A stretch of 64,000 bases of DNA, from assembly GCA_948567375.1 (NCBI GenBank), contig OX419756.1, forward strand, positions 67,098,333-67,162,332, written 5' to 3'. This stretch comes from Lunularia cruciata. Lineage: Eukaryota; Streptophyta; Marchantiopsida; Lunulariales; Lunulariaceae. A program made the translations under genes and the position numbers. Position 1 is the stretch's first letter; every line of letters starts with the position of its first letter. Positions 23,366-50,205 of the stretch are shown one piece after another. The notes beneath the pieces are model-generated. The model saw only the letters and a program-made list of their open reading frames with translations. It searched no databases and was not told the origin of the DNA.

Positions 23366-23378
23366 TTGGTATCAGAGC
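23366..23378 (+). other. Primer-binding site, Family II copy b
   Basis: TTGGTATCAGAGC directly follows the 5' LTR. It is complementary to the 3' end of plant initiator methionine tRNA, the usual primer of plant LTR retrotransposons. Confidence 0.88.
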
Positions 23379-24536: not shown

Positions 24537-24560
24537 GAGATTTCGAGCCGCCTACTGGGA
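24515..24560 (+). promoter_or_regulatory. Candidate -1 ribosomal frameshift signal, gag-pol
   Basis: The slippery heptamer GGGAAAC lies at 24515-24521, in register with gag codons (CCG GGA AAC). After a 6-nt spacer, a perfect 10-bp stem follows: TCCCAGTAGG at 24528-24537 pairs with CCTACTGGGA at 24551-24560, with a 13-nt loop. The gag stop TAG (24534-24536) lies inside the stem. Slipping by -1 enters the pol frame, which then stays open into the protease. The stem is kept in copy a and has one mismatch in copy c. Confidence 0.8.
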
Positions 24561-28586: not shown

Positions 28587-28591
28587 GCTTG

Positions 28592-28661
28592 ATCATTCTT
28601 GAGGGTCTGCACTTGACTTTGTAATGCCTCCATGGTCATCTTAATCTCTTGAAATTTGTTC
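28592..28661 (-). pseudogene. Element X gag fragment between two Family II insertions
   Basis: Seventy bases encoding, on the minus strand, the coiled part of Family III gag (FQEIKMTMEALQSQVQTLKN). It matches 6025-6095 of element Y. Its ends are the TSDs of copies b and c, showing two independent insertions about 75 bp apart in the same gag. Confidence 0.8.
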
Positions 28662-28666
28662 AACAT

Positions 28667-29092
28667 TGTAAAAGACCGAATCCAAGGAGAGAAATAGGAG
28701 AATGGAAACTCACATTGGGACACTTGAATGAGGGAAAACTCCAAATGCCTAGCATGAGCTTTGGCTTTGGTATTTATAGGTAGCATACAAGGCCCATGAG
28801 AAGCTTCTCCAGAAGCTTCCTCAAGCCGCTTTCTTAGAGTGCAAGCCAAGTTAACTAGGAAGCTTCTCAAGAAGCTTCCTTCTAGAAGCCGCCTACTTGG
28901 CATGCAAGCTAAGCTAGTTGGAAGCTTCTAGAAGCTTCCTTCTAGAAGCTACTTACTTAAGGTGCAAGTAAAGCTAATTGGGAAGCTTCCCCAGAAGCTT
29001 CCTAGATACTTCCGGAATATTCTAGGCTAATTTGTCTTATGTGCTACTTTGTGAGCCCAACTAACTTCATCGCTAAACTCCATATTGTTACA
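28667..29092 (-). repeat. 3' LTR of Family II copy c
   Basis: 426 bp, plus-strand TGTAAAAGACC to ATATTGTTACA. It has the same GAA/TTC clusters as other Family II LTRs. The polypurine tract (GGTAGGGGAATA on the minus strand) adjoins at 29093-29105. Confidence 0.88.
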
Positions 29093-29099
29093 TATTCCC

Positions 29100-32000
29100 C
29101 TACCGCTAGTTGGTGACGTCCTTGTTGCCAATGAAGCTTCAGATTCCTGGATGACCGTCTGTGCATTTTGGAGGTGAGAAAGAGGTTCCTAGGTGGCATC
29201 ATAAAGGGGATACCCTTTCCAAAGGACCTTGTACTCCGTATGTTGGCAACGGCCTTGTTGAATATCGCGACGTGCAAGGATACAATCAACTTCGTACTCC
29301 TCATGATCATTGATATGGATAGGAAGAGAGGGAGGTTGGACTCAAGAGGAAAAGGAAGAGGGGTTAGGAACAAAGGGTTTTAACTTGGAAACATCAAAGA
29401 CTGGATGGATACGCATGTGACAAGGCAAGGCAAGACAATAAGCAACAAGAGAGACAATTTGGGTGATATTAAAGTGTCCTATCCAATTAGGGGCAAGTTT
29501 ACGAACTTGGGTATCAAGTGGGAGAGGGAGGTTACTAGAGGATAGCATGACTTTATCACCAACTTCAAAGGTGAGATCTTGACAATGGTGGTCCGCATAT
29601 TGTTTTTGGCAATTTTGAGCAACAAGGAGGTGAGACTTGGCTTGTTGGAGAGATTGGGATATAGTGGTCAAGAATTTGGAAGTATGAGGAACTTGAGATG
29701 GAGGGGGAGCAAGAAGAGAATTTGGAACAAGCGGATCTTGGCCAAAATTGAGAAAGAAAGAAGAGAATCCGGTGCTTGCCTGTTTGGAATTTTTGTAGGC
29801 AAATTTAGCAGTGGCAAGACATTCATCCCAATTAGTATGGTGGACATTGACAAAGGCACGCAACATATCCTCCAATGTACAATTTGCACATTTGGTTTGT
29901 CCATCAGTTTGAGGATGATAGGCCGTGGACAAAGCAAGCTTGGTGTCGAGTATCTGAAAGAGTGCTTGCCAAAACTTCCCGATAAAGCAAGGATCACGGT
30001 CGGAGATGAGTACGCATGGCATTCCATGATGCTTGAAGACATTGTCAAAGTAGATTTGCGCTAAGGTTGGAGCATCCACAGTATCACAAGTTGGTGCCAA
30101 GTGGATTTGCTTATTAAGCTTATCCACAAACACCACAATGGCGGTGTGTCCTTGTTTTGTCTTTGGTAAGGATGTGATGAGATCCAAGCTCACATGCTCC
30201 CAACGAGCTGATGGAACGGCAAGCGGTTGAAGGAGTCCACCCGGCTTCTGGTTGCTGGCCTTGTTACGTTGGCAGCTCTCACACGATCGGACAAATTCTT
30301 GAACATCTTGTGTCATGTTGGGTCACCACCATTGACATTGGAGGGTACCCAAGGTCTTGTCCACACCCATGTGACCAGCGATGGGTAAGTCATGGGCTTC
30401 TTGAAGGCGCACAAGTCAAAGATCACCTTTGGCTGGAACATAGACCCGGTCCGCATAGAATAGAAGGCCTTCCTTGAAGGAGAAGGTGTTGTACTCCTTG
30501 TCACTTGTTGTTAGCCGACCATGTACCATTTGGAAGAAGGGATCTTGCTGTAGAGCTAACCAAAACTTGTTATGAATCTTGGGATCAATTGACACCGTCG
30601 TAATTGCTACCGCGAGGAGAGGAAGAGACTTCAAATCAGGTCATCGTGATAGAGCATCAGGGATGACATGGAACCGACCTGGTTTGTACTCAAGTTTGAT
30701 GTCAAACAATTGGAGTTGCTCTTCCCATCAATGATGTCGACTCTTCATGTGCTCTAGGTGTAAGGTCTATAACAATGGCTTGTGATCAATTTGCATGATC
30801 ACTTGTTTCACCAAGAGATAATGCCTCCATACCTTGGTGGCATATACCATTGCAAGTTGTTCCTGATCTTGAGCAAAGTAATTTCTTTTGGTTGTATTTA
30901 GTTGGTGAGACACAAAGGCAATGGGATGTAGTCCATCTAGGAATTCTTGTTACAACACAGTTCCAATTGCAAAGTTAGAAGCATCAAAATCAACCACACA
31001 AGGTAGTTGAGGATCATATGGTTGAAGAATGGGTCTTGAAGACACCATATGCTTTAACTTCTAGAATGCTTCTTCATGCTTGGTGGTCCACTAGAAGCTC
31101 AAGTTCTTTCCCAAGAGGTCAGTCAATGGTGCAGCCATGTGAGCATAATAGTGGATGAACCATCGGTAAAAACTGGCCAATCCATTGAATGCTCGTACTT
31201 TGGTGGCATCCTTTGGGGTAGGCCAATCAATAATGGCCTTGATCTTCTCTTCTTCTATCTTGATCCCCTCTGATGAGATCTTATGACCCAAGAAGGTAAC
31301 CTCCTTCTACCAAAAAGCACACTTTGACTTCTTGCAATAAAATTTCCACTGTTGTAGTCGTCTTAGGACTTCTCGCACATGATTCATGTGTTCTGCCTCT
31401 GTCCTACTATAGATTAAGATATAATCTAAGAACACTACCACAGACCAATCCAATAGTCCTTCCAACACCCAATGCATCTGATCCATGAAGACTATTGGAG
31501 CATTAGTGAGTCCGAAAGGCATAACTCTCCACTCAAAATGTCCATACCTTGTGCGAAAGGCAATCTTTTGCACATCCTCTCCTTTAATAGGAATTCGCAA
31601 ATAGCCGCTACAAAGATCCAGCTTGGAAAAGTAGCATGCTCCACTTAATTGATCAAGCAGGTCATTGATCCGAGGCAAGGGATATGCATTCTTCATGTTT
31701 GCTTATTGAGTCCATACTAATCAATACAGAAACAAAGTCCTCCATCCTTCTTTGGAACAAATAGTACCGGTGCTCCCCAAGGAGAGGTACTATGTTGTAT
31801 GAAATTCTTCTCCAACAACTCTGTAAGTGTTATTCGCAACTCCTCCAACTCCTTTGGTGAGAGCCGATAGATTGGTCTACTCACTGGAGTACTCCCTGGC
31901 AATAACTCAATCTTGAAGGGCATACCTCGATCGGAGGGTAATCCCTTTGGCAGATCATCCGGAAACACATCTACAAACTCCTGAACTATCCGATCAACCA

Positions 32001-32700
32001 TTGCTTGATGAGGCTCTTGGCCCTCCTTAGATTGTTCTTGTGCAATTGGCTTGACCCACACCGCAAATACAAACTTATCTTCCTCCAAAGCTTGCTCTAT
32101 GGCCGCTTCATTAACAAACTTCCCTTCTAGGGACTCATTTCTCTTTCAAGCTTGCTTCATGGTTGCCTTCTTGGCAAATTTCCCATCTTGGGACTCATCT
32201 CCCTTCCAGATTCACTCTATGGCTTCCTTCTCAACAAACTTTCCATCTTGGAACTGACTATTCTTAGGCATCTTACTCAGAGGTGCCAAACAACCTAATC
32301 GGAAATTTCTACCTTGATGTTGTACTTGAATTTATTGTCAGGTCTAATCAAATTGAACCTTATGACGTTCAAGCCAAGGTAGACCTAGAATGATATCATA
32401 GTGTAGAGGTGCCACTACAAACCTCATACACTCCAAATACTCCTTCCCAATCTTGAAGGTAACAGGATGTGAGGTGTGGAATGCAAAACCCTTTCTACCA
32501 TCCGCCATCATCAGACTACTTCCAAACATTGGCTTGATAGAAATACCCAATTCCTTTGCTACTTGCATAGACATGCAATTCTCTGAACTTCCAAAATCAA
32601 CCAAAATCCTACAACCGCAATTAGATATTGTACCTTGCAAGTGAAGCAAACTTGCATAGGTCGAGCATTCAATCCCATTGGAACTAATCAAGCTCCCAGT
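29100..32700 (-). pseudogene. Family II copy c pol
   Basis: Minus-strand pieces. Protease at 32344-32691 ([13 protein letters not shown]). RT N-terminus at 31717-32088 ([13 protein letters not shown]) and RT at 31307-31696, where FLDYILIYS replaces the catalytic FLDD. Connection and RNase H at 30416-31291. Integrase at 29342-30316, open for 324 codons, with LDLITSLP, ISDRDPCFIGKFW and HPQTDGQTKCANC (a substitution next to the catalytic Glu region). The chromodomain lies at about 29130-29310. Stops and shifts separate the pieces, and the active-site change alone would disable RT. Confidence 0.83.
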
Positions 32701-32709
32701 AGGCAGCTC

Positions 32710-33635
32710 AAAATCTCCTATTGGGATTCTTTGTTTCCTTGATCATTCTTTTCCACAAACTCTATCTGGGCAACTTGTCAAGGTCGCCCATTCCTAAGTG
32801 GACATTCAACAATGCAATGTCCAACTTGGCGACAATAAAAGCAACCTCAATTTTGTCGTAATCTTTCTCTTTCTGTTGTGCCAAGTGGTCTTCGTTGGAT
32901 AGCATCAATTTCCATTGGTACTGGTTCTTCCACTTGTGCGTAGTGTACTGGTAGGCTTTGTGTAGGTTGAGGTCAAGACCAGGTTGTCACAACCAAGGAA
33001 TCAAAACGCTCAGCCAATTGCATGGCTTCTTCTACATTTTTTTGGCTCATGCATGGTCACCTCCAATTTGGTTTGTGACTTCAATCCTTGCACAAATCGA
33101 TCCAAAACTTCACCTTCTTGGATATCTAGAATTTGCATGATGATGTTCTGAAATTATGTGATATAGCTTCTCACTGAGCCAATCTGCCTCAACTCCGCCA
33201 ATTTTTCTCGTGCGGCTCAAGTGGCATATATCGTTTGAAATCGACCAAATATTGCATCTTTGAATTCTGCCCATGTCAAAATTGGTGTAACAATTTGTTG
33301 TTCAGCTCTTTCTACTTGGAATCACCACCAAAGTTTTGCCACACCATCCAATTGGCTAGAAGCCAAGAGAATTTTTTTCCGCTCGTCTTGAAGATTGGTG
33401 GCTTCAAAGTAACATTTGCAGTCAAACACAAAATTCTCCACTATGCCTAGAAGATTCTTGCCTTCAAACACCTTGGGTTTCAAAAAATCAAATGCGATCT
33501 TCTCCATCTCGAACTGGCGCTCTGTCTATCTATTCTCGTCGTTGATGGTCTTGTTCATCCAACAATCGAGTAAGATGCTTGATTTGTTGTTGCATTGCAA
33601 GGATAACATCCGGTATTGCCGCCATTGCTACCACT
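32710..33635 (-). pseudogene. Family II copy c gag
   Basis: Aligns with copy b gag. The piece 33322-33507 encodes KPKVFEGKNLLGIVENFVFD and LQDERKKILLASSQLDGVAKLWW. The zinc knuckle region lies near 32800-32850. Frameshifts and stops are scattered, and the slippery heptamer of copy b reads AGGAAAC here. Confidence 0.75.
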
Positions 33636-33896
33636 CTATTCCACTACACTCAATTTATCTAGTTGATTAACACAAAGATACAACACGTCCACTGTTCTCC
33701 ATAAGTTACAACTGGAAGTATCAAGGGTTCCTCTAACACGGTGATCATATGTAGAAAATCCTGCCCAAAGTGCAAGGTGATGAATTGTGTGAAACAATGC
33801 TTTGGTAATATCTGGACATGAAAGTCCCAATGGTTTGGCGGAAGTGGATTTGGTGGTCCATAAATTCCATCCATCCCATTCATGCTCTGATACCAA

Positions 33897-34322
33897 TGTA
33901 AAAGACCAAATCCAAGGAGAGAAATAAGAGAATGGAAACTCACATTGGGACACTTGAATGAGGGAAAACTCCAAATGCCTAGCATGAGCTTTGGCTTTGG
34001 TATTTATAGGTAGCATACAAGGCCCTTGAGAAGCTTCTCAAGAAGCTTCCTCAAGCCGCTTTCTTAGAGTGCAAGCCAAGTTAACTAGGAAGCTTCTCAA
34101 GAAGCTTTCTTCTAGAAGCTGCCTACTTGGCGTGCAAGCTAAGCTAGTTGGAAGCTTCTAGAAGCTTCCTTCTAGAAGCTACTTACTTAAGGTGCAAGCT
34201 AAGCTAACCGAGAAGCTTCCCAAGAAGCTTCCTAGATACTTCCGGAATATTCTAGGCTAATTTGTCTTATGTGCTACTTTGTGAGCCCGACTAACTTCAT
34301 CGCTAAACTCCATATTGTTACA
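33897..34322 (-). repeat. 5' LTR of Family II copy c
   Basis: 426 bp, followed by TSD AACAT. The heat-shock-like GAA/TTC clusters are retained around 34028-34190. Confidence 0.88.
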
Positions 34323-34327
34323 AACAT

Positions 34328-34927
34328 CCCCTGCATTCCTTGCATCAACTCATGCAACTACGGATCCATGGTTCCTATAACAGTTGATTGCTATACCCTA
34401 AACTTCAATAGAGAGTTAATATGATCACTTTGGAGGGTGCACAAACTATTAGAACTACTATTGGGACCTCAGATGCTACCACTTGTTGGTAATATTCCTC
34501 ACCAAAATTCCTGACCACAAAATCCCTAAACATCACTTTTGGTCTCACTACATAACAAATTTCTATTTGAGTGTTAAAAGGGAAAGGATTTGGGATATTC
34601 AAATCCATCACAACAAAATGTAAATTGTCAAATCCCACTCTCTATCGTAAATCACTACAGGCAAAATCACTGGGTTTGGCAAATTCATTACTATATCCAT
34701 GAACTCTGCTCCGAAGTGAAAAACCAAATACACTCTCACTTGCTCGCATTGAATGTACATAATCTTGATGTTGAATGGATTCAAGAATGGAAAGCAAGGC
34801 ACTGGATATTGTCCTCACGGAGCATCCATTCTATCCTCCTAATCTACCAATTACACCAGAATGTCTCTCCTCAAAATTACTCAATATCAGTAGCCCATGT
34901 TCTTCCAGGAGGGGTTGGACAACACCT
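34328..34927 (-). pseudogene. Element X leader and gag start
   Basis: Collinear with 5385-6020 of element Y. The minus-strand reading holds short open pieces (34405-34638, 34608-34802) such as LHFVVMDLNIPNPFPFNTQ. Gag proper begins near 34390 and runs into the insertion site of copy c. Confidence 0.65.
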
Positions 34928-34940
34928 ACTCTGATACCAT

Positions 34941-35696
34941 TGTAATACTCTGAGGATAGGAGACCTAAAGAGAAACACACCATGAGAAAGACACACTTTC
35001 ACACTCAAACTCCAATGCCCCAAAGGAGCACCTTCTCTTTATTATATAGGTAAAGCGGATCTCCTCCAATGAAGCTCCACCATAGGATTAGGTACATAGA
35101 TACGTGATATGTCAGCAAGCTCCACCCTTGGATTACTTACTTGGATGGGTGACATGTCGGTCCTGGTCCTATCTGGTTGGTCAAACAAGCTTTGATTGGA
35201 GGGAATCTTTTAGGGAATCTTCTTGTAGGAATCTCAAAATCACGTGAGTGAGGTACTGTTGGAAAGCTCTTGACAAGACAAAGCAAGGGGGAGGGAAGGC
35301 CAGCCTTTCCTCCATTGGTGGGGGAGCAATTTGCATTTTTGAGGCCTAATTCATCCATTTAGGCCTCTGAAATTGCCTTCAAAGATTTCAAGCATATTTT
35401 GGTTCCAACTCTATTAGTAGAAGTCCCCTTTTAGTGATACCTCTTTCTGATCTATTCAGTCCATCCTGTGTAATATCTTTCCAGATGTTACCAACCCAAT
35501 TCTCACCTTCAAATCATATGTTTAGCTATTGGTTCTAAGGTTTTCAAATCTATTTCGGTTTTCTACCCTATTAGTAGAAATACCCTTTTGATGATACTTC
35601 TATCTGATCTATTTTGACCATCATGTATAACATCATTCCAGATGTTACCAAACTAAATTTTACATCTAGATCATATGGCTAGCTCTTGGTATTATA
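34941..35696 (-). repeat. 5' LTR of element X
   Basis: 756 bp. Plus-strand TGTAATACTC to GGTATTATA, followed by TSD ATAAG. The minus-strand PBS TGGTATCAGAG adjoins at 34929-34939. Confidence 0.86.
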
Positions 35697-35701: not shown

Positions 35702-36557
35702 CACAAGGCTCACAAGTGTTCAAGTGGTGATGTCTATCAAGCGCATCCTACCCTACTTTACAAAGCCAAGGCTCACAATCTAGGTCAAAAAATTTAGGTC
35801 AATAGCTTGACCTAACACCTGACGCTTGGATGCCTCTAACACTACTAGATCAACAATAATACTAGTGCAAAAACCCATTGCTTGCTCTCTCTCATGGGTA
35901 TTGGGCTCCACTAATTGTTGTAACTGAGAGTCTCAAACCAATCCAAGACCTCCCTCTCAAAAAGCATGAAAGCATAGGAAACTCATAGGTTTGTGAAAAG
36001 CAACTCTAAGCTGTCTAACTAGGTTCACCACTACCATGGATGACCTATCAACCACTACCACCGTCTGAGATTGACGCCCAACATCCAAGATGTCATCAAC
36101 AATGTTGTGGTCTAGTCGTTGAATCCCATCATAAGCGCATTGTAGAACCTCTCTAGGTAAGAGGTTTGTCCACCAAAGACCAAAGATGATGAGCTCGTGA
36201 TCTAACTCTGGCTGCATCTAACAATACTGTAGGTCCCAGCCAAGAATGGACCTGATGTGTACTTGCCACCACTCTGGTGCAAGAATCACCCATCAAAGGA
36301 ATGTTCTCCAAAAGGTTAGTTGGAGAAACAGATTGATGGACCTAAAGATGTCATAGTATTTGTAACATCTCCCAAAACACACCAGAATGAGGATCCTAAA
36401 GACCCAAACCTTGGCTAGCACATGTATGTCCCTAACATGGCTATCCGTCAATCACCAAATGAACATGTCTCTTTAGATCATGTGCCCCCAATAGGGAAAT
36501 GCTTGTTGGTAGGGCATTCTAGTAGCCTCTGACTACTAACACCAATAATAACTCAAG
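35702..36557 (-). pseudogene. Element 1 DNMT, motif IV to C-terminus (degraded)
   Basis: Continues the methyltransferase whose motif I is at 47164-47300; element 2 separates the two. Recognisable minus-strand motifs: HLVIDG*PC*GHT (motif IV, with stops beside the catalytic Cys), NLLENIPLMGDS (motif VI) and LLDAARVRSRAHHLW (motif VIII). The target-recognition/C-terminal segment is in 35957-36217 (DILDVGRQSQTVVVVDRSS). Stops make it non-functional. The right edge is the TSD of element 2 and the left edge the TSD of X. Confidence 0.8.
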
Positions 36558-36561
36558 ATAC

Positions 36562-37242
36562 TGTCGTGCGTATATACATCGCTACACAATATACATCGCT
36601 ACACAACATACATCGTTGTCAACATCATACACTATTGAAGCACAACTCATACATAAGTCATACATAAACTCTAAAGTGTCACAATAATCAGATTGTTTAC
36701 CACTCTCAACTCAACTCAACTCAGATCAGTACTTGATCTGTCACTCTATAAATTGCCAACAATTGGGCACTAATTACAGTCAAGCCATACCCACTCCAGC
36801 ATAGAGAATCTAGGTGATGCTCACTGGCCTCTGTCCACCATAGCCAGGAACTCAAAGGCTCAACATCAAAGAAGTGAGCTCTCTAGAGCTGCACTTCAAA
36901 AGTATACCTCCTAGACTTGAGCTAGGTCTGAACCCTAATGGTCCCACTGACGGCACACTCAATGGTGCAAACGGTGCAAAGTGATGGTGGGCCCCACCGT
37001 CAAGTTAGTACCCCAAACATGAAATCTGACCGTCGGAAAGTAGTCTCTGATGAATTGCTGAAATAACTCTAACTACTGTCACTGCAACTCCAATGTCTGA
37101 GCAATCTAGATGCGACACTACAAATGGCCTGACAGTTGTTGTGCATATATACATCGTTACACAACATACATCGCTGTCAATATCATACACTATAGAAGCA
37201 CAACTCACACATAAGTCATACATATATTCTAAAGTGCCACAA
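36562..37242 (-). repeat. 3' terminus of element 2: B1-A2-B2 repeat block
   Basis: Plus-strand order: B2 36562-36684 (with a small internal repeat of tacatcgctacacaa), A2 36685-37134 (450 bp), 2-nt spacer GT, B1 37137-37242 (106 bp). A2 matches the 5' repeat A1 at 46710-47159, also 450 bp. A1 is followed internally by unrelated sequence rather than a B copy. A purine-rich stretch (AGCTAGGGAGGCAAT, minus strand) precedes B1. Confidence 0.8.
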
Positions 37243-37410
37243 TTGCCTCCCTAGCTGGCGGTTAGGTCCCTCTAACTCCATATAGCCATCTACTCTACGT
37301 ATATGGTATACCCTATAATGGATAAAGATCAAGAGGCCGGGTGCTATGGAGCCCCATTGTTAGTCGCATGTCTGCAATCTATACCATATAAAGAATGAAC
37401 TAGCTATAGG
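37243..37410 (-). other. Element 2 3' untranslated stretch
   Basis: Lies between the pol stop and the B1 repeat. It contains the candidate polypurine tract and no coding potential. The same sequence lies at 1829-2020 in element 1. Confidence 0.6.
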
Positions 37411-38890
37411 TCAAGTACATCTAGGACATAACCACTGTCCCTGAGGAACCACCGTGAGAGGAGGAGTCATACATGCCATATGCCATCCTCTCAAACAGCT
37501 ATCACACACTAACATAATAGCAGCTCCACTAGAAGAGCCACATAACATACACCTCAAGCCTGCACGTACAAGTGCCAAGCTTGGGTCCATAGTATCATCA
37601 ATGTTTGGGAGGTGGCATGGTGCACAATTGTGCACATGATCCTTCCAAACAACACCATCACGTCCTTCTAACACAAGGACTCCAGATGGCAAAACCTCAC
37701 GCACTTTCCAGATTGTGCGGCATGTAGAAACATCAAGTGTTGTCGGTGCTATTTGTTGTAGATATACATAATCTCATGGATGAAATCGATGGATCGAGGG
37801 TCTATAACCTCCTCCTCGAATGGTAGCATAGCATAAATTATCTCTATGGTGAGCAATCACCAAGTTCTCAAAGGCCATCAGTATCACTCTCTGAAAGATC
37901 TCTACTCGTTGAGAACATGTGCTCATCCATACATCGGGGTCATCCGGGTCCAAAACTACAGTAACATCTTGATGAATGGCTGCCGGTAAATTTGGATCTC
38001 ATCTATAGAGTAGAAAGTACGGAGAGAAGGATGCTAAGGAGGCTTGCCGGCTGAACCGATAGCCCATGGCCAACCAAGGTAACTAGAGATCCTAATCTCC
38101 CAAGTGGCTTCTCTGCAAACCATACTTTTGCAATCCTCTCTTCACCGTTTGAACAACTCTCTCTGCTAAGCCATCTGCCTCAAGGTGATCTTGAGATGTA
38201 GTACAATGATCAATCAAAGCCTTGTCACACAAGACTTAAAACTCTCCCAAGAACTTTGTACCTTGATCAGTCAAAACTTCAGCTAGTGCACCAAAATGAC
38301 TAAGAACTTGATCCAAGAAAGAGTAAGATGTCCCTTCACTAGACTTGTCAGGAAGTGCCACCAACTCAATCCACTTGGAGAAGTGCTCCACCATCACCAA
38401 AACATACTGATGATCCTTGGTCTGCATACCGTGTCACCAATAATGACTCTAGAGTAAGCTATATGTATGCTTTACTCCAAACTCCAAACTCCAACGGTAA
38501 CCCAATCCCATGATAGGTAATGGGTGTAACTATGGTGTAGGAGCATTGAATGATGCTCTAACTTGGTCACAAACCACACATCTGGCAAAAAACTGTTGTA
38601 CCTTGGTCTGCATACCGTGCCACCAATAATGACTCTGGAGTAAGCTATATGTACACTTTACTCCAAAATGTCCTAGCTCCTCATGAGCATGACGGACCAA
38701 TGTGGTCTCTGAGATGGAAGTGGTACTACTTGCACTCTACCATCCTCCCATACACGCAAAAGGTGTCTGCACTCCAATCTGAACTGTTGGGCTTGCTGAA
38801 GAACACAATCTCTCTCCTTGATCCCAATTGTGCCACCTACAACACCAGTGCAAAGATAGTCCATCACTAAGACATCATCATGAATGTCTC
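37411..38890 (-). pseudogene. Element 2 integrase with C-terminal PHD finger
   Basis: The integrase zinc region (HFGVK, then CVVCDQVRASFNAP) lies near 38690-38550. The core is at 38236-38427 (VMVEHFSKWIELVALPDKS, LTDQGTKFLGEF), followed by EADGLAERVVQTVKRG with the catalytic Glu. A C-terminal region (IWKVREVLPSGVLVLEGRDG) leads into a complete PHD finger at 37551-37417. In the 97-residue open frame 37704-37411 its ligands are C52, C55, C67, C70, H75, C78, C93 and C96, with the conserved W91. PHD fingers bind histone H3 tails; here it takes the place of the chromodomain of chromoviruses. The integrase part has stops, and its first catalytic Asp region is replaced by a duplication (38419-38670). 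Confidence 0.85.
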
Positions 38891-40490
38891 ATTGAACTAT
38901 ACCAATATCTTCACTCTTTGGATCTCTGACCTCAATAACTCCTCTTGTATGTGCTGAGAGAGATACCACCAAAGCCTCAAAAAATATACATAGAAAGGTA
39001 GATGCATGCCAACTTGGCACCATCTCCTCATTTGTCTCACCATGCCAACATGCTCCGGTCTGATCTTGTTGGCTGGGACATGGGTTTCTACTCAACCCAT
39101 CTGCATCATAGTTCACCATTCCAGGTCTATGAACAACCGTGAAATCATACTCTTGTAAAATCAGAGCCCATTGTGCAAGCTTCCTTGAAAGCTTGTTGGA
39201 CTCCATCAACCACTTTAATGGATGATGATCAGTAATAGAGTGAAGGGGTTACCAAATAAGCAACATCGGAAATGTGTTATTGCCCAAACTGCTACCAAGC
39301 ACTCTTCCTCATATGAACTATACTTTGCCTCCGCTGAATTGTTGGAGCGACTAGCATAGGCCACCACAAACTCCTTCCCCTCATCATCATGCTGGGTGAG
39401 CACCGCTCCAAGCCCCAACATACTCCAATTAGTATGAACTTGAAATAGTCATCCTCTGATCTATTTCCTCAAAATAGGAGTAGATGTCAACCTCTCCTTG
39501 AGCTCGACAAAAGCTCTCTCCTGCTCATCTCCCCAACACCACTCTTGTGTAAGCTTGGTCAGCTTTGTCAAGGCCTTGGCAATGGCACTAAATCCTCTAA
39601 CATAGCGGCAATAGAAGTTCACCAACCCAAGGAATACTCGCACTTTGCTCACATCCATAGGCCAAGGAATATGTGCAATAGCCTCCACCTTGGTCTTCTG
39701 AACACCAAGTCCTCTTGGGTAGATAGTGTGACCCAAATACTCAACCTGCTCATGGAAGAGCCTACACTTCCCAAGATGTAATTTGAGGCCATGAGATCTC
39801 AATCTCTCAAATACCTCCAACAATTGTCTCTCATGCTCCTCCACAGTAGTATTATAAACCAAAATGCCATCAATATAGCACCAAGAAAAATCCAATCCAG
39901 CTAGGATCCTATCCATGACCCTTTGGAACTCAACAGGAGCATTCTTTAACCCAAATGGTAAGAACCTCCACTAATATAACACATCCTTGCCGTGAGGATC
40001 AATAGCCCTGAATGTTGTCTTGGACTTATCTTCCTCTCTGATTGGCAATTGATGATATCTTGCTTGAAGATCCAAAGAACTGAAGACCTTTGTATGCCCA
40101 ATCACATCAAAAATCTCCTCCGGTGTAGGCATGGCATACCAATCAGCCCTGGTCTATTGGTTGATAGGACAGTAATCTCCACACATCCGCCTATTTGTGT
40201 AGTTTCCATGCATATCCTTCTTCGCCGGCATCACTGTCACTAATGCATACTCTCCATGTGAAATCTCCACCAAACCAGCCTCAAAAAGGTCACTACTCTG
40301 GCTTTGAATCAATGTCCTCTCCATGTCATTATAACGATAAGGATGTCAAAAAACTAGTGTATTGCTAGTCAGCTCAATCTATATACCAAGTCCCTTTAGA
40401 GCACCCAAATCCTTCATACTAAAAGCAAAACAACTCGTGTAGCTCTTCAAGAACCTCCAAACCCTCTGTCTTTCCTCTCCAATAAGCTTA
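38889..40490 (-). pseudogene. Element 2 reverse transcriptase and RNase H
   Basis: RT begins near 40270 (ISHGEYALVTVMPAKKDM, DYCPINQ) and continues with FSSLDLQARYHQLPI and FLPFGLKNAPVEFQRVMD. The frame at 39461-39916 carries the active site as CYIDGILVYN, where the second Asp of YxDD is Gly. Element 1 still has IDDILVYS. RNase H: 39215-39421 (GLGAVLTQHDDEGKEFVVAYASRS, with EAKYSSYEEECLVAVWA). The frame 38889-39209 has LIL-EYDFTVVHRPG-type residues and DADGLSRNP. RT and RNase H would copy the element RNA to cDNA. Confidence 0.83.
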
Positions 40491-40904
40491 GGTCCAAGAT
40501 CTGGCTCCAAAGTATCCTCTATAACTGTAGTAGGAGTGGAAGATGTACTGACTAGCTACCACACTGGGCCCTTGGGAGCAATAGTGTCATGCTCTTGACC
40601 ACGAGAGGTCCCAATCTCTATGTGAAAAACTCCCTCCACTCTGGCTGCAAGCTCTACATATCCTCTAGCTGCATCCCATGTGGACCAAGGATGTAATCCA
40701 AGTAGCCCATGCTCACCTGGATGGACTCCAAGTAGACCACTCTCCCTAGTAGCTACTTGAATGTACCCCAAGAATACCATGTCCACTTGGTCCATCACCC
40801 CCAACATGTGCCTGAATTGTCTTGATAGGCATAGGGCTCACAAGTGTCAAAGTGGTGATGCCTATCAAGCGCATCCTACGCTGCTCTGCCAAGCCAAGGC
40901 TCAC
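40491..40904 (-). pseudogene. Element 2 linker between DNMT and RT
   Basis: The open frame 40556-40807 encodes a linker with short repeats (GLLGVHPGEHGLLGLHP). It has no known domain that I recognise. It is conserved in position in element 1 (17360-17772), so it belongs to the polyprotein rather than to a separate gene. Confidence 0.6.
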
Positions 40905-42511
40905 AATCTAGGTCAAAAGTTTAGGTCCATAGCCTGAACTAACACTTGATGCATGGATGCCTTTGACATTGTTGGAACAGCGATAATACCGGTGTGAAAG
41001 CCCATCGCCCGCTATCTCTCATCAGTGTTGGGCTCCACCAATTGCTGTAACTATGAGTCCCAAACAAGTCTAGGTCCTCCCTCTCAAAAAGCATGAGAGC
41101 TTGAGAAACTCATGAGTGTGGGAAATGCGGCTCTAGGCTGTCCAACTAGGTTCACCACTACCATAGGTGACCTATCAACCACTACCATTATCTGAGACTG
41201 ACGCCCAACATCCAAGATATCATCAACAAGGATGTGGTCAAGTTGTTGAATCCCATTATAACCACACTGTAAGAGGTTTGTCTTGTAACACCCATTTGTG
41301 CATGTGTGTGATATTGTGATATTTAGCTTGGTATTACAAGTACTTAAGAGATATTATTTATATAGAGATAAAGGATGGTTCTATATTAGTCATGGTTAGC
41401 TAAAGTTATTCATAGCTAAGATAGAGGGGACCTTACTTTAGAGGAAGTAGAAAAGATGAGCACCACTATTTTGGATTTTAGTGTGTGGACATGGTATTAT
41501 TCCTAGGTGTTTGGCTTTGAGGAAAGAGTTGAAAACTCTTGGGCCCGCACGCCTTTTTGTTTTGGATTCTTCTTTAGTCCAAGGATAGCCCATGTGAAGG
41601 AATCCTTGACTTAGTGGTTGGGTCAAGATAAGACCACATGCTTAGGGGAATATGCCCATGTGAATGGATATTCCTTTCTACTTTTTGACTTGACTTGACT
41701 TTTAGTCTAGTAACTTGAGTTACTACGGTACTTAGTAACTTTGGTACGTAACTATTTCACAAGTATATAAACAAGGGGTGAGGAGGTACTCATCATCCTT
41801 TCATTTGCAACTATCTCTCTCTCATTGAGTTCTCTAGTGAGCAATGTCTTGAGTCTTGGAGTGTTAGCCTTGGAGGAGTATGATGGAGTTGGGGTTCCTT
41901 GCCTTCTTAGTCCATGGTGCGCTACCATAATAGCCATCAGAGGTTCATCCTAAGTGAGAGACAGGCCGGCTCACAGTCCACCAAAGACAAAGACAATGAG
42001 CCCGTGATCCCACTCTAGCTGCATCTAACAATATAGTAGGTCCCATCCAAGAATGGACCTGATGTGTACTCGTCACCACTCTGGTGCGAGAATCACCCAT
42101 CAAAGGAATGTTCTCCAAAAGGTAAGCTGGAGAAACAGATTGATGAACCTGGAGATGTCGTAGTATCCATAACATCTCCCAAAACACACCAGAACAAGGA
42201 TCCTGAAGACCCAATCCTTTACCAGCATGTGTATATCCTTGACATGGCCATCCAAAAATCACCAAGTGAATAGGCCCATGTCTCTCTAGGTCATGCGCCC
42301 CCATTAAGGAAATGTCTGTTGGTAGGGCCTTATGGTAACCTTTGGCTATTGACATCAATAATAACTCCGGATATTGATAGGCCAAGTGTGCCACATGATG
42401 TAGAGAGACTCACCTAGATGTCTCATCTCTCTTTACATACAAGTACCTCTGTACTCGTATACCCGCCTATAACACCGCAGCTAGTCTGGTGCTAATCCCA
42501 CCAAACAACTC
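40905..42511 (-). pseudogene. DNMT3-like cytosine-C5 DNA methyltransferase domain of element 2
   Basis: Motif I ELFGGIS with AAVL*AG (42511-42450); KRDE follows (motif II-like acid). Motif IV LVIFGWPCQGYTHAGKG holds the catalytic Cys at codon 42244-42242, then SGVFWEML. Motif VI YLLENIPLMGDS. Motif VIII LLDAARVGSRAH, then LWWT, where a solo LTR (41284-41975) interrupts. After it come a target-recognition-like segment (DDILDVGRQSQ) and motifs IX-X: EPNTDER*RAMGFHTG and QVLVQAMDL near 40935. The order, the motif VIII SRAHRxRxxW style and the end resemble DNMT3/DRM-type de novo enzymes. It would transfer methyl groups from S-adenosylmethionine to cytosine. It sits between protease and RT in the same orientation. 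Stops at CAG and CGA codons show decay. Confidence 0.86.
41284..41975 (+). mobile_element. Solo LTR of an unrelated retrotransposon, inside element 2 DNMT
   Basis: About 692 bp, TGTAACACCC to GGCTCACA, flanked by GTCT (41280-41283) and GTCC (41976-41979), a 4-bp TSD with one change. The uninterrupted site is seen in element 1 at about 36165-36180. A TATA box (tatataaaca) lies at about 41764-41773 on the plus strand. There is no internal coding region. The family is not otherwise present in this window. Confidence 0.75.
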
Positions 42512-42559
42512 CAATAGACATAACCCCTCTATTGGATACTGCCAAGCAATGAGTGTGGT

Positions 42560-43700
42560 ATCCAAAGGTATCAAAGCAATCACCTTTGGAGGCTCATCTT
42601 CACACTAATCTCCTGATAGTATGAAGGCTCCACTCCAAGCTTGCTGCACCAACTAATCTGCATGTTGTTGCAACACCTCCTTGGAACTCCACAATGGAAC
42701 ATCCAAGGTGGATGGAATAATCCCACTTGTACTCTAAAGCCGAGTGATCTCCTCTGGTACTGGAGTATCCTCTATATGGGCGTTCCACTCCAACAAGTCA
42801 CCAGGCCAAGTAACTACACCATTGAAAGCTAAAACTGATGTTGCCATGGTCCCTGACTGTAGTGAGCCAAGACTACCACTACTCAAGCATATTGGTAGGC
42901 AACGTACCCATCCCTCACCAGACTGCCAACCAGGTCTATAGGAGGTTGTCTTTTCCAATAGTCAATACTGAAACCCATGGGGTATAACACGGCTTCCCCA
43001 ACTAGCACATCATATGACTCAACTATTGTCGCAATAGCTTGAGCTCTTACCACCAAGCTATCAATTGGATGACCAAGCTAAACCTGAACAACAAGCTCCC
43101 CACATGTGATGTACTATGTCGAACCACCACCTAGAGATGTCTGGGTCTGAAATAGACACCTCTCTACATCGGTCTTTTGTAAGTCCAGACCAACAACTAC
43201 AGCCTTCTCCAACATAAGGGGCTACGCACCAAAGTCTAACAAGACTCTTTGTGGTGTATAGACCTTCCTTGAAGGTCCCACCAAACGGAAAATCCCTCTT
43301 TGGTTATCCAATAGGACAACACCAGGTGTGAACCGTGCTCTCTCAAAGGCCGGTCTAGTTGGCAACTCCTCCAATCTAGCCGTTGCTGCTTGCCATAAAC
43401 CACTGGTCGCTTAACAAATCCCATGCTACTCAACCAAGTCAGCTCCACTACCAACCACCTTTGCTCTAGTAGTAGGAACCACATCATCTCTACTCTCACA
43501 AAGTGTGGCAGCCAATTAGAACACTAGGCTGGGTCAACTCCCAATGTAAACATGTCACTGGCCAAAAACAAAGGATGCCGCATAATCAGCTGAGCCGCCC
43601 CCAACATCATGCTAGACTCAGTCTATGTAGTAGCAGGTGGCTGACTAGATGGTAGTCCATCATGTACTCCATCACCACCTACCACACCTACACCGGGACA
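42560..43700 (-). pseudogene. Element 2 aspartic protease region
   Basis: Minus strand. YTPQRVLLDFGA is followed by PLMLEKAVVVGL near 43260-43180, a retropepsin-like active site with F in place of S/T (D-F-G-A). Upstream is GVVLLDNQRGIFRLVGP; downstream come HPIDSLVVRAQAIATIVESYDVLVG and GFSIDYW. Element 1 has the matching block at 47990-48070 (LLDFGVQPLMLGKA). Stops occur in both copies. This enzyme would process the polyprotein. Confidence 0.65.
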
Positions 43701-45401
43701 TCTAGGAACCATGGATGTTGTCTGCAATGCCTCAAATAGCATGAAAGATTGGGGAAGTCTGACCTATCTCCCAACCTCTCCTCTTTGTGGGTCTAACTCC
43801 ATTGATGCTCCTCTAGGCTCTGGAGCATGCACTGCACTCTTAGTCACTGCTGAAGATGCATCCACTTGTGCTGCTCCACACTTGAAGTCCAAAGCATCTC
43901 TATCACCAACATATGAGGTGGATGCCTCAGCACCCGAATCTGATCTCCTCTGAGCAATAGCCATACTAGCCAATCTCTGCTCCAACTGCTCAATCCAAGT
44001 GGCCATAGATGTGTCAGAAGTAAGGGCAGGTACTGCACCCCTACTAGGTGTAGATCCTCTACCACCTCGTCCTCCATGAACTAGAGCTCCTCTACTACCT
44101 GCCATAGCAGCCTAGGCTACCTTTCCGTAACTCTGGGTGTAGGTCAAAACACCAATCACTAGTGTGACTAAATTTGTAGCAATACTCACACTGCCTCTGT
44201 GCTGGCTATGATGCACTTGAGTCATGAGGTCCACTGCCCTCAGTACACTTTCTTTGATGGTGAGGTCCACCACAAGTCCAACAAGCAACACCACTACTCA
44301 CTGGTTGTTGTTGACCCGCAAATGAAGGTAAGGGACTAACTCCACTAGGCCCTCCACTTGCTCCATAGGATCTGGGCTGTCCACCCTGTCCTCAAAAACC
44401 AATTGGGTGTGGTGCACTCTGCTACACTCTAGAAGAAGTCATAGCCATGGATGAGGTCTCCCTACCAAATCCAGATGTCACCACACTCTCCTCCACTATG
44501 TTAAGCTCAATATGCTTAGCCAAACCAAAGACCACTACCAAAGTAGGCAAAGTAGCATGTAACAATGTAGCATCACAAACTCTATGTCGCAACTCCCTAT
44601 CTAGTATCCCATACCAAAACTAGACTACTTGGGCCTTAGTAACTCCTTGAGTGAAACTGATCAACCGCCTCATGCAAGTGTATGCCCCACGTAGGCTCTC
44701 TCCAGCCACTCTTGCAAGCTCCTCAGCTTGTCAATCCGCACTCCCTAGTAGTTCTGCCTCAAACATAGGAAGAACTCCACCATGGGGTTAAACCCCAGTA
44801 CCACACCACCTCCTGTAGCGGTACCTCCACTCATAGTAGCACTATCTCCATCTAGTGCACCTCCACTAGCTCCACCAACACTACTTGAGCTAGAACTCGT
44901 AGGTAAAGCCAATCTACTCTTGGCCACCAAACCTGAAGTGATGGAGATATAATTCGGAGACCAATATTGTCTCCATAACTCGATCTCCTCCAAATGAGCT
45001 CTCTTGAACTCATGGTAGTCATCCATTGGCAGACCCTCCAGATGCTAAAACAACCCCTTCCATGCCATGAAAGGTGTGAACAAATTCGGGTTCCGCATCT
45101 GTTGCAGATCACACCAACTGTCAAACGCCTGGATAGAGTCATCCAACTCAATGGTACCCACTGTACCAGAGTAACACCTAGGGCCTTTGGAGACCCCATA
45201 AATCTTGTCCACGTCCCACAACAATGGTGCGGACACACCAAGTGCACTCTTAATTGAATCAACTCCTATGTCAAACTCCAACTCAGAGTCAATCTCCTCC
45301 CTCACTGGGACTTGAGATACAAGCTGATATCGAGTACCACTCCAAGTAAACCCACTACGTACTATAAGGCTATCTCCTTTGGAATCTCCAAAGAATTCCA
45401 T
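43701..45401 (-). pseudogene. Element 2 gag with two zinc knuckles
   Basis: The ATG at 45401 starts MEFFGDSKGDSLIVRSGFTW; the frame is open to a TAG at 45045-45047. The same frame continues as HLEGLPMDDYHEFKRAH with a Ser/Gly-rich region (SSSSSSVGGASGG) to 44745. Near 44280-44120, minus strand, are CWTCGGPHHQRKC (CX2CX3HX4C) and CEYCYKFSHTSDWC (canonical CX2CX4HX4C). A Gly-rich and helical segment follows at 43764-44105 (MATWIEQLEQRLASM). Element 1 has a stop (TAA) at the same codon as the TAG at 45045. Confidence 0.75.
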
Positions 45402-46709
45402 CGTGACCAAGTAACCGCAATAGTAAACCAGAACCACCAACTGCAACCGCAAGTACCCCACCAAGTGCCAATACCAACTAAGCACCACCTACTAATGTTA
45501 CTCTAACCGAGATAACTACACTAGGGGAAAGAGCAACCTATAACTTGCCATCATAACACGCACTCTCATGATCTATAGGTCATCACTTCCTACCTCACCG
45601 GAGAGAAACAAAGGTAGTCTGACTAGTCCAGCCTCACTACCAAAAGTACACCAGAGCACCAATGCTCAAAAGTTAGGGCACCTCACACAAATGTGGTGCA
45701 CAAATAGGAAGTAGAGAATGGAGGGGTTCCAATCACAAGAAATCTAAACAAAAACCTCCATCTCATAACACAATACAAGATTGACTCTACCACCATTTGG
45801 CATTTGACATAAGAGAAGTTTGTATCTAAGTCCTAAGCTACTAGGATCACCAAGAATGGGATCAAACGGCCTCTCCTAGCCAAACCTACATGTGTATAGA
45901 TAACAATGGCACAGTCACTAGGACAACAAGTGAGGGTGGACCAGTTGGCTAGGGTACCAGTCTAGGAACAAGAGATCTAGGGGTCAAACCCTATTGCACA
46001 TAATCTAGCAGGAAAGGCAGATTTTGCCAATCAATGACCAAGATCTACTCTAAACTAGCTAGCCTCACGCCAACAAGCTGGCCCTTCTAGGCCTTTGTAG
46101 CCTCTCATAGCCCACAGCCCTATGCCTCTTAATGCTGAAATTCAGCCAAATGAGGCCTTTCTTCTTGCCACTTCGAACCTCCTCCAAAATTTGGCAAAAC
46201 TCCTCCAAACTTGCGAAAGTCCTCCAAGCTAGCAAAACTCCTCCAAATCAAGCCAGACAGCAAAACTTCTCCAAATTTGGCCAAAATCTAACATAAAATT
46301 TGACGTAAACCCTAAAGTTGGTTGATCACCAAATCCCCTGCTAACTTTCCACTCGAGCCAAATTGACAACACGGATTTCTCCAAATCACAAATTCATGAG
46401 AATAGCTTCTCAACTCCACCTTCAATTTGACTTTTTGAGCCCAACTCATAGCAAATTGGTCTCGCCTTCACCTCTTGAGCTCAAAATCACAACCACTGCT
46501 CAAAATTTTCTCTTTCTATGCTCAAAAATTGGCCACCGCTTCCGCACACCGTCTGCCTTATTGCCAAATTTGCATCAATTGAACAAGCTTCTGCACACTA
46601 GGGAAAAGCTGAACTTGAATCAAGCTACCAACAATCCACCAAGCTTGGAGATACCACCAACACTCAAAGTTCTTGCACTTGTTTTCCCCTTGACTTCACT
46701 TCTTTGATG
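45402..46709 (-). other. Element 2 leader between A1 and gag
   Basis: About 1.3 kb without open frames of note. A TGGTATC match to the initiator-tRNA primer site lies at 46650-46656 (minus strand), about 53 nt from the end of A1. The same spacing is kept in element 1 (51036-51042). The match stops after seven bases, so the primer-binding site is uncertain. Confidence 0.5.
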
Positions 46710-47159
46710 TAATCAGATTGTTTACCACTCTCAACTCAACTCAACTCAAATCAGTACTTGATTTCTCACTCTATAAACTACAAACAATTGGGCACTGATT
46801 ATTGTCAAGCCACACCCACTCCAGCATAGAGAATCCAGGTGATGCTCACCGGCCTCTGTCCACCATAGCCAGGAACTCGAAGGCTCAATATCAGAGAAGT
46901 GAGCTCTCTGGAGTTGCACTTCAAAAGTGTACCCCCTGGACTTGAGCTGGGTCTGAACCCGAACGGTCCCACTGACGGCACACTTGATGGTGAAAATGGT
47001 GCAAAGTGATGGTGGGCCCCATTGTGAAGTCAGTATTCCAAACACAAAATCTGACCATCAGAAAGTAGTCTTTGAGGAATTGCTGAAATAACTCTAACGA
47101 CTATCACTGCAACTCCAATGTCCGAGCAATCTAGATGCAACACTACAAATGGTGTGACA
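46710..47159 (-). repeat. 5' terminal repeat A1 of element 2
   Basis: 450 bp; minus strand TGTCACACCATTTG to AATCTGATTA. It matches A2 at 36685-37134. It lacks the B segment that follows A2 at the 3' end. TSD ATAC adjoins at 47160-47163. Confidence 0.85.
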
Positions 47160-47163: not shown

Positions 47164-48500
47164 AGATAGGCCAAGTGTGCCATGTGATGTAGAGAGACTT
47201 GCCTAGTAGTCTCATCTCTCTCCAAATGCAAGTACCTCTGTACTTGTATACCCGCCTGTAATACCGCAACTAGTCCAACATTAATCCTACCAAACAACTC
47301 CAATAGACATACTTCCTCTATTGGATACTGCCAAGCATGAGTGTGGTATCCAAAGGTGTCAAGGTAATCGACTCTGGAAGCTCATCCTCACACTCATTTC
47401 TTGGTGGTACAAAGGCTCCACTCCAAGCTGGTTGCATCAACCAATCTGCATGTTGCTACAATACCTCCTCTAAACTCCACAATGGAACATCCAAGGTGGA
47501 TGGAACAACCCTACTTGTACTCCAAATCCGAGTGATCTCCTTTGGTACTAGAGTATCCTCTGCATGAGCATTCTCCTCCAATAAGTCACCAGGCCAAGTA
47601 ACTATACAATTGAAAGCTAAAATTGATGCCGCCATGGTCCCAAACTGTAGTGAGCCAAGGCTACCACCACTGAAGCGTACTGGTAGGCAACATACTCATC
47701 CTTCACCTGACTGCCAACCTGGTCTATAGGAGGTTGTCTCCTCCCAATAGTCGATATTGAAACCCATGGGGTATAACACTACTCCCCCAACTAGCACATC
47801 ATATGACTCAACTATTATTGCAATAGCTTGAGCTCTCACCACCAAGCTATCAATCGGGTGACCAGGCTGAGCTTGGACAACAAGCTCCCCACGTGTAATA
47901 TACTATGTCAAACCACCACCCAAAGATGTCTGGATCTGAAATGGACACCTCTCCACATCGGTCTTCCATAACCCTAGACCAATAATTGCAGCCTTCCCCA
48001 ACATAAGGGGCTGAACACCAAAGTCTAATAAGACTTGTTGTGGTGTATAGACCTTCCTTGAAGGTCCCACCAAATGGAAAATCTCCCTCTAGTTATCCAA
48101 TATGACAACACCATGTGTGAACCGCACTCTCTCAAAGGCCGGTCTAGTTGGTAACACCTCCAATCTAGCCATTGTTGCTTGCCATAAACCGTTGGTTGCT
48201 AAGCAAATCCCATGCTCCTCAACCAAGTCAACTCCACTATCAACCACCTCTGATTTAGTAGTAGGGACCCTATCATCCTAACCCTCACAAAGCATGGCAG
48301 CCAACCAAAACACTAGGGTTACGTCAACTCTCAATGTACATATGTCATTGGTTGAAAACAAAGGGCAACATATAATCAGTTGGGTTGCCCCCAACATTGT
48401 GCTAGATTCAATCTGTGTAGTACTAGGTAGTTAACTAGTAGGTAGTCCATCATGCACCTCATCACCACCTACCACACCTACACTATGACGTCTAGGAGCC
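47164..48500 (-). pseudogene. Element 1 protease and DNMT motif I
   Basis: DNMT motif I region in 47164-47300: ELFGRINVGLVAVLQAG, then YLHLERDETTRQ. It is better preserved than the element 2 counterpart because Gln and Glu codons are intact. It ends abruptly at the TSD of element 2 and resumes at 36557. Protease remnants at 47760-48070 include LLDFGVQPLMLGKA. Stops are present throughout. Confidence 0.8.
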
Positions 48501-50205
48501 ATGGATGATGTCTTTAAGGCCTCAAAGAATGTGAAAGACTGGAGAAGTCTAACCTGTCTCCCAACCTCTCGTCTCTATAGGTCCAACTCCACTGATGCTC
48601 CTCTAGGCTCTGGAGCACGTATTGCACTCCTAGTCACTGCTGCAGATGCATCCACATGTGCTGCTTTGCATATTAAGTCCAAAGCATCTCTATCACCAAC
48701 ATATGAGGTGGAAGCATCAACACCCAAATCTGATCTCCTCTGAGCAATGGCCATACTAGCTTATCTTACTCCAACTGCTCAATCTAAGTAGCCATAGTTG
48801 TATCAAAAGTAAGGGCAAGTACTGCATCCCTACTAGGTATAGATCCTCTACCACCACCATTACCTCATCCTCCATGAACTAGAGCTCCTCTACTACCTAC
48901 TATAATAGCCCTACCACTCCGTAACTCCGGGTGTAGGTCAAAATACCGGTCACTTGTGTGACCAAATCTATGGCAATGCTCACATTGCCTCTGTGTTTGC
49001 TATGATGCACCAAAGGTATCAGGTCCACTGCCTTGAGTACACCCTCTCCTATGGTAAGGTCCACCACATGTCCAACAAGCAATACCACCACTCATTAGCT
49101 ACTGTTGACCCAAAAATGAAGGTAAGGGTCTAGTTCCACTAGGCCTTCCACTTGCTCTATAGGATCTGGGTTGTCCACCCTGTCCTCAAAAACCAACTAG
49201 GCATGGTGCACTCTATTGCACTCTAGAAGAAGTCACAACTATGGATGAGGTCTCTCTACCAAATCTAGATGTCACCACTCTCTCCTCCACCATGTTGAGC
49301 TCATTAGGCTCAACCAAACCAAAGACCATTGCCAAAGTGAGCAAAGTAGCCTATAGCAACATAGCATCATGAACTCTATGTTGCAACTCCCTGTCTAGTA
49401 TCCTATACCAAAACTAGACTACTTGGGCCTCAGTAACTCCTTGAGTGAAACTGATCAACCGTCTCATGCAAGTGTATGCCTCACGTAAGCTCTCTCTGGC
49501 CTTCTGTTGGAAATCTTACAAGCTCCTCAACTTGTCAGTCTGCACTCCTTGGTAGTTTTTCCTCAAACATTGGAAGAACTCCACCATGAGGTTAAACCCC
49601 AAAACTACACCACCTCCTGTAGCGGTACCTCCACTCGTAGTAGCACTATCTCTAGCTAGTGCACCTCCACTAGCTCCACCAACACTACTCGAGCTAGAAC
49701 TTGTGGATACTACCAATCTACCCTTGGAAACCAAGCTTGAAGTGATGGAGACATAGTTCAAAGACCAATACTGTCTCCATAACTCAATCTCCTCTAAGTG
49801 AGCTCTCTTGAATTCATGGTAGTCGTCCATCAGCGTACCTTCCAAATGTTAAAACAAGCCCTTCCATGCCATGAAGGGTGTGAACAAAGTTGGGTTTGGC
49901 ATATGTTGCAGATCACACTAGCTATCAAACTCTTGGATGAAGTCATCCAACTCAATGGTACCCACTATACCAAAGTAATGCCTAGGGCCTTTGGAGGCCT
50001 CATAAAACTTGTCCATGTCCTATAACAATGGTGCGGACACACCAAGGGCACTCTCAACTAAATCAACTCCTGTGTCAAACTCAAACTCAGAGTCAATCTC
50101 CTCCCTCACTAGGACTTGAGATACAGACTGATATTGAGCGCCACTCCAAGTAAACCCACTGCATATTGCAATGTTATCTCCTCCAAAATCCCCAAAGAAC
50201 TCCAT
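48501..50205 (-). pseudogene. Element 1 gag
   Basis: The ATG at 50205 gives MEFFGDFGGDNIAICSGFTW; the frame continues with stops to KGLF* near 49848 and HLEGTLMDDYHEFKRAH (49516-49845). Knuckles near 49080-48930: CWTCGGPYHRRGC and CEHCHRFGHTSDRY, where the last Cys of the second knuckle is Tyr. Here the knuckles and the following Gly-rich segment share one frame. This suggests that the ancestral gag and pol were one reading frame. Confidence 0.72.

Follow-up and report, generated by a model that had tools for sequence, protein, structure and literature searches.

Two nested DNMT-bearing gypsy elements

The window analysed here is a 64,000-nucleotide stretch of the Lunularia cruciata genome (Marchantiopsida; contig OX419756.1, positions 67,098,333 to 67,162,332 of the forward strand), and it holds two copies of one retrotransposon family, elements A and B, each with a DNA cytosine-C5 methyltransferase (DNMT) domain on the minus strand between protease (PR) and reverse transcriptase (RT). 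This arrangement in a Ty3/gypsy element had been proposed in an earlier note on the same DNA, and a Pfam profile search, a protein search and tblastn agreed in confirming it. The PF00145 profile, a check which that note had suggested, matched the open reading frame (ORF) at 42409-41945(-) with 27.9 bits (E 2e-6; cut-off 22 bits), and the translated DNMT region, with stops read as X, had 33 matches among database proteins at E <= 0.001, the strongest at 1.5e-110. The E-values of both searches rule out chance motif matches, and we regard it as virtually certain that a DNMT3-type domain lies in a Ty3/gypsy-type element. As a control, tblastn of the window with a DNMT query returned A and B only, and an RT query returned five further RT loci, all without a DNMT match.

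In element A the domain spans 40919-42529(-) (tblastn pieces 42529-41975 and 41287-40919, also found by Pfam and the protein search) and is interrupted at 41288-41974 by a foreign insert of about 690 bp not present in copy B. This insert begins with TG, ends with CA and has an imperfect flanking repeat (GGAC/AGAC); it may be a solo long terminal repeat (LTR) of some other element. In B, an N-terminal piece lies at 47165-47318(-) (tblastn match 47318-47130, trimmed at the element A border) and the remainder beyond element A at 35774-36566(-) (tblastn pieces 36566-36180 and 36178-35774), and the second copy previously noticed at the same position is this domain of element B.

Self-comparison and junction reading resolved the nest, with A inserted in the DNMT region of B. 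Element A (36562-47159(-)) has TG..CA ends and a 4-bp duplication, GTAT, at 47163-47160 and 36561-36558. Element B (1171-51545(-)) is split by A and two other LTR elements and is flanked by CACT at 51549-51546 and 1170-1167; joined across A, its flanks equal in length the matching site in copy A, as judged by eye. According to tblastn and the domain maps both share the order Gag, PR, DNMT, RT, RNase H (RH), integrase (IN) and PHD finger. In A, the Gag region (43527-45212(-), colinear with the Marchantia protein P0158) is followed by the aspartic protease region (42952-43362(-); tblastn), the DNMT, the RT (39698-40252(-); Pfam and tblastn), RNase H (39129-39547(-); tblastn), the integrase with its zinc-binding part and rve core (37798-38700(-); Pfam and tblastn) and a C-terminal piece with the PHD finger (37414-37617(-); Pfam, PDB search and tblastn), which the earlier note had overlooked (Pfam E 1.1e-10). 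In B, the Gag region (48769-50016(-)) is in part colinear with P0158, and tblastn placed the protease at 47720-48151(-), the RT in two pieces at 16996-17199(-) and 4237-4623(-), RNase H at 3668-4083(-), the integrase at 2377-3253(-) and the PHD finger at 2056-2196(-).

The Ty3/gypsy order PR-RT-RH-IN is present in A, in B and in a relative on contig CADCWO010000201.1 (L003), whose RT has the Ty3 RT as its best PDB match (E 6e-59), and the integrase is identified by an rve match (E 3.1e-8), TG..CA ends and 4-bp duplications. Copy A has many in-frame stops and the pieces of B carry stops as well, so neither can make the enzyme, and both are dead copies. The terminal repeats within each element are 0.900 (A) and 0.849 (B) identical, and A and B differ by 14-17%, approximately the decay expected after insertion; for this reason Ka/Ks of A against B was not used and genome copies were compared instead.

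Assignment of the domain to DNMT3

The earlier note had described methyltransferase motifs in order and a DNMT3/DRM type. Motifs I, IV, VI, VIII and X indeed occur in unrearranged order, as in DNMT3, although in copy A the stretch past motif VIII is split by the insert. The DNMT3 half of the proposed type holds and the DRM half does not: DRM is ruled out because motif I stands ahead of IV, VI, VIII and X, without circular rearrangement, whereas motifs VI-X precede I-V in DRM as described (PMC9861306). In profile scores, DNMT3A reached 60-66 bits against about 19 for DRM2-named entries. The domain is thus assigned to DNMT3 on its sequence, its order of motifs and its predicted fold, and its catalytic residues are conserved in the relatives by sequence comparison. 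DNMT3A/B/C of animals are the best PDB matches by both sequence and fold and share the motif order, but the relation is distant, at about 24-26% identity when the folds are aligned, and the domain here lies within a Gag-Pro polyprotein. Animal DNMT3 carries ADD and PWWP domains, and the retroelement DNMT is without them. The fold list has no row named DRM, DNMT1 or CMT, which excludes none of these classes, and a motif filter found no host DNMT gene among L004-L011. Viral contigs gave two weak matches; one, L001, has a 367-residue ORF that by eye resembles a bacterial-type C5 methylase.

Split terminal repeats

The ends depart from the canonical layout of two identical LTRs, one per end: in A, B and nine further copies, a repeat L stands at the 5' end and the series A-L-A at the 3' end, where repeat A is distinct from element A. 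In element A, the 5' L (46710-47159(-)) is 90.0% identical to the 3' L (36685-37134(-); self-comparison), the internal copy of repeat A lies at 37137-37243(-), joined to L by CA-AC-TG, and the terminal copy, with a short internal duplication, at 36562-36685(-). A solo terminal repeat of the same family, L then A, lies at 449-997(-) with the target duplication TTGT. The family is thus gypsy by its enzymes, not by its ends.

Ten genome copies, chosen for long open frames, were fetched with both ends; nine show 5' L and 3' A-L-A, each with an exact 4-bp duplication, and the 3' stretch of the tenth is without the repeat. L identity within the nine dated copies is 0.967-0.996, and therefore the family moved recently. 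The internal A-L junction reads CA-GC-TG in all nine, CA-AC-TG in element A and CA-GT-TG in B, which identifies it as the meeting point of the two element ends, with two bases separating them, and a G-rich run (e.g. CTAGGGGGGCG) stands just ahead of the internal repeat A in the nine genome copies. The junction would serve as a template restoring both ends, as in DIRS-type split repeats, with integration itself probably performed by the DDE integrase.

The family in the genome

The genome searched comprised 565.8 Mb in 74 contigs. PF00145 gave at least 123 scored matches (the best 123 of 2161 candidates), the strongest of which (G000:C7:31989837-31990154, 80 bits) is probably an exon of a host methyltransferase. 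The protease-DNMT part of the Calypogeia protein P0005 matched at least 62 places at 65-68% identity (62 scored of 17359 candidates). The intact copies that the earlier note had suggested searching for were found: at least 28 of these 62 places are without a stop inside the match, and at least 11 have an open frame of exactly 1428 residues. A and B belong to an autonomous gypsy-type lineage with recent movement in this genome.

Twenty stretches spanning DNMT and RT were fetched, chosen for DNMT matches and long open frames. Pooled pN/pS between genome copies was 0.44 for the DNMT and 0.18 for the RT (171 pairs among 19 copies for either domain, with one of the 20 excluded on account of its length), values from non-independent pairs of copies chosen for open frames. 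By rising dS class the DNMT ratio was 0.85 (19 closest pairs), 0.46 and 0.33, which fits purifying selection between copying rounds and neutral decay after insertion.

A putative leaky stop between DNMT and RT

In 17 of the 20 genome copies the first stop past the DNMT is TAG CARYYA (15 TAG CAG CCA and two TAG CAG CTA), 106-114 codons beyond the domain, and in 18 the RT follows the stop in the same frame. This context occurs at 20 of the 1947 TAGs in the fetched stretches, both strands counted. L003 has TAG CAA TCA between its two ORFs, the sole such site among 101 TAGs, and B has TAG CAG CCA at 17504-17512(-), between its DNMT and RT, one of 6 among the 2238 TAGs of the window, with the frame shifted after the motif. 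In tobacco mosaic virus (TMV) and many plant viruses, CARYYA is described as the context in which readthrough takes place (PMC4132726). With UAG CARYYA between two same-frame ORFs in the 17 genome copies and in L003, the sequence signature of TMV-type readthrough is present, and we predict with considerable confidence that programmed readthrough occurs there. Among 25 database proteins traced past the DNMT, eight end 80-86 residues on and 14 end 8-175 residues on, where the cause may be either a stop codon or the end of the contig. The gene models P0028, P0157 and P0162 continue into the RT; because the post-DNMT tail is missing from them, they are taken as probable spliced predictions.

Relatives and two architectures

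A species name is carried by 10 of the 33 protein matches (Calypogeia fissa, Marchantia polymorpha, Riccia sorocarpa, Sphagnum troendelagicum and S. jensenii) and by 6 of the 21 from a second protein search, all Marchantia. All 16 named among the 54 matches are bryophytes, with no named vascular plant among them in these length-limited searches, and no type 2 element (see below) bears a species name. Nineteen of the 54 relatives have protease then DNMT, one (P0028) has DNMT then RT, and 21 have the DNMT alone; in a second architecture (13 of 54) the DNMT follows RNase H or directly precedes the integrase. We refer to the two plans as type 1 (PR-DNMT-RT) and type 2 (RH-DNMT-IN). P0029 (Marchantia), one of the 19, also runs from the DNMT into integrase and PHD in a gene model without RT. 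L003 follows the first plan; its contig, whose ends overlap by 127 bases, is filed under a cyanobacterial metagenome-assembled genome, in which it is very probably a eukaryotic contaminant.

PHD fingers occur in 10 of the 54 relatives. In one type 2 polyprotein, P0165, the PHD finger is followed by a Tudor domain (PF21743). P0112 (Haematococcus lacustris), a chromodomain gypsy protein without a DNMT, has a PHD finger listed and falls outside the DNMT clade by RT; judging from this protein, gypsy elements may have acquired PHD fingers on separate occasions.

By RT, 13 DNMT elements group into a single clade (support 100/100) against nine other gypsy-type elements, mostly from one search, such that other gypsy lineages could fall inside it. 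The same clade was recovered (100/98) against eight others, among them Ty3 and two further window families, in a second tree without P0042, P0062, P0090 and P0101 of the first. In this second tree types 1 and 2 each come out as monophyletic (100/99 and 100/98). In the DNMT tree, which has 39 rows and includes 35 of the 54 relatives, partial ones being left out, the window copy falls in a 13-row clade (100/100) with Marchantia and Calypogeia copies; this tree is unrooted, as its two outgroup rows are very long.

Comparison with described elements

The earlier note had supposed that such a domain in a land plant may be new. The land-plant part stands, as the named relatives are all land plants, but a gypsy LTR element with Dnmt3 in Pol has already been published for Klebsormidium nitens, KnitGypsy-Dnmt3 (de Mendoza et al. 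2018, PMC5890265). According to the legend of Fig. 4 there, it has an unrearranged Dnmt3 in the polyprotein and DIRS-like repeats with gypsy domains; judged by this printed description, the family of A and B is of the same type. Its host is a charophyte alga, whereas the named relatives here are bryophytes; 'PHD' has no occurrence in the main text of that paper, and we found in its account no leaky stop and no second domain order. No named K. nitens DNMT element was among the matches of our two protein searches. SymbioDIRS-Dnmt3 and SymbioLINE-Dnmt likewise are retrotransposon-borne DNMTs, but the former is a DIRS element with tyrosine recombinase and the latter a LINE, neither being gypsy, and the same article calls the acquisitions of DNMTs by retrotransposons independent (PMC5890265). 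Both SymbioDIRS DNMTs that it tested methylate CG de novo in yeast. Chromoviruses resemble the present family as gypsy elements with a chromatin-reading domain past the integrase; theirs is a chromodomain, whereas here a PHD finger takes that place, a DNMT is added and the RT clade is apart from the chromoviruses sampled. A literature search within open-access papers, most of them judged from listings, found no DNMT-bearing gypsy element in bryophytes, no PHD finger on a gypsy integrase, no Gag-side DNMT at a leaky stop and no second domain order.

The DNMT of this gypsy family is real and present family-wide; the family has been active in recent times and represents a variation on an element type already in print. 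The young genome copies and the relatives in liverworts and mosses show that DNMT and PHD are lasting partners of the gypsy element and did not come together by chance. Because Marchantia is kept as a laboratory plant, its relatives of the family make a retrotransposon's gain from a methyltransferase testable in a land plant.

Proposed mechanism and alternative explanations

The explanation that we favour, at a probability of roughly 0.7 when taken as a whole, is that A and B are dead copies of a DNMT3-PHD gypsy lineage with a leaky stop, cDNA methylation and PHD targeting. Owing to the leaky stop, Gag-Pro-DNMT would be the main product and many methyltransferase molecules would enter the particle; a DNMT on the Gag side of the stop is probably made with Gag and packaged. 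The packaged enzyme could then methylate new double-stranded cDNA, most likely at CG, ahead of integration, after which the cDNA would resemble resident DNA. The best PDB matches of the PHD finger are CHD4, PHF12, KDM5A/B and PHF21A, and several of these fingers read histone H3 unmethylated at K4; from these matches comes the suggestion that the integrase-borne finger might direct insertion into chromatin marked by a certain state of the H3 tail, perhaps a lack of methylation at K4. Self-methylation of cDNA by the element's DNMT is a tentative proposal that falls a little short of even odds, and PHD targeting of integration is put forward with the same caution. More doubtful still is the combined picture of a gypsy lineage reaching into land plants that packages DNMT3 by a leaky stop, integrates CG-methylated cDNA and is aimed by a PHD-bearing integrase, whereby it would set its own epigenetic state before landing. 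The placement of the DNMT on the Gag side gives a concrete hypothesis on how a methyltransferase could benefit the element.

Several observations weigh against this explanation. Gag-side synthesis is not universal, because the second architecture places the DNMT past RNase H and ahead of the integrase. Three of the 20 genome copies are without CARYYA at the first stop (in one, TAG CAG CTT occupies that place, and the other two reach a stop sooner), and copy A stops one codon later without CARYYA (the stop is followed by CTAG). The DNMT is less constrained than the RT, with dN/dS at 0.85 in the closest pairs (dS under 0.03). C-to-T differences between copies rank CG (0.30-0.38), CHG (0.13-0.37) and CHH (0.04-0.10), some cells being small (e.g. 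5/15) and B's own L pair being an exception with CHG slightly above CG; an unrelated LTR pair has the same ranking, and this decay hence marks host CG and CHG methylation and cannot tell self-methylation apart from silencing by the host. The Klebsormidium gypsy DNMT gave no methylation in yeast, a result its authors call inconclusive (PMC5890265). Methylation, readthrough and particle content in the present family are predictions from sequence.

Among the alternatives, the chance landing of a host DNMT fragment in a single retrotransposon might be suspected from the broken state of both window copies and the interrupted DNMT of A, but it is exceedingly improbable: the domain lies at the same position in A and B, is present in 20 of 20 fetched genome copies (chosen for DNMT matches), follows the protease in the 19 relatives of type 1 and recurs at that position in L003, in agreement with the earlier view of it as a family trait. 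Hardly more credible are the L...A-L-A ends as an artefact of tandem insertion or recombination, even with tandem LTR elements being common in plants (as the title of PMC11899658 has it), since exact 4-bp duplications at the start of L and the end of repeat A accompany this plan in both window elements and in nine of the ten additional copies, the solo L-A has a target duplication too, and the same repeat plan is printed for KnitGypsy-Dnmt3.

Whether type 1 and type 2 captured host DNMT3 genes separately is a closer question. Their insertion points differ, and the DNMT tree is poorly resolved at its deep nodes, with type 1 not one clade but needing 4 changes and type 2 at 91/64. On the other hand, all 13 RTs are one clade, a C-terminal PHD finger occurs in both types, and RT and DNMT trees agree on two pairs of type 2, P0170/P0171 and P0173/P0175, as well as on P0168 with P0172 (P0176, which has no RT piece, groups with the last two in the DNMT tree); separate capture is, in our estimate, possible at somewhat less than an even chance. 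The DNMT might also serve ends other than the element's own cDNA, such as RNA methylation, methylation of competing elements or DNA viruses, or taming of the element for the host. Such roles have been proposed in print (PMC5890265, discussion; PMC6338049, antiviral use), but the DNMT stands ahead of the leaky stop, together with Gag, which is in favour of a function within the particle, and we hold the other roles to be less likely than not.

Other elements in the window

Two LTR elements besides A split element B, at 17778-35696 (duplication CTTAT/CCTAT, LTR identity 0.939) and 4631-17036 (duplication AAAGG). They are two copies of another gypsy family, with LTRs of about 750 bp that hold tandem repeats of about 157 bp, and a Riccia sorocarpa protein shares 75.5% identity with the RT-RNase H part of the former. 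A young gypsy element at 22943-28586, which we read as Tcn1-like, has a chromodomain-like C-terminus and LTRs that are 99.5% identical; older relatives of it lie at 6789-12441 and 34322-28669, and its top-scoring match is from Klebsormidium (52% identity).
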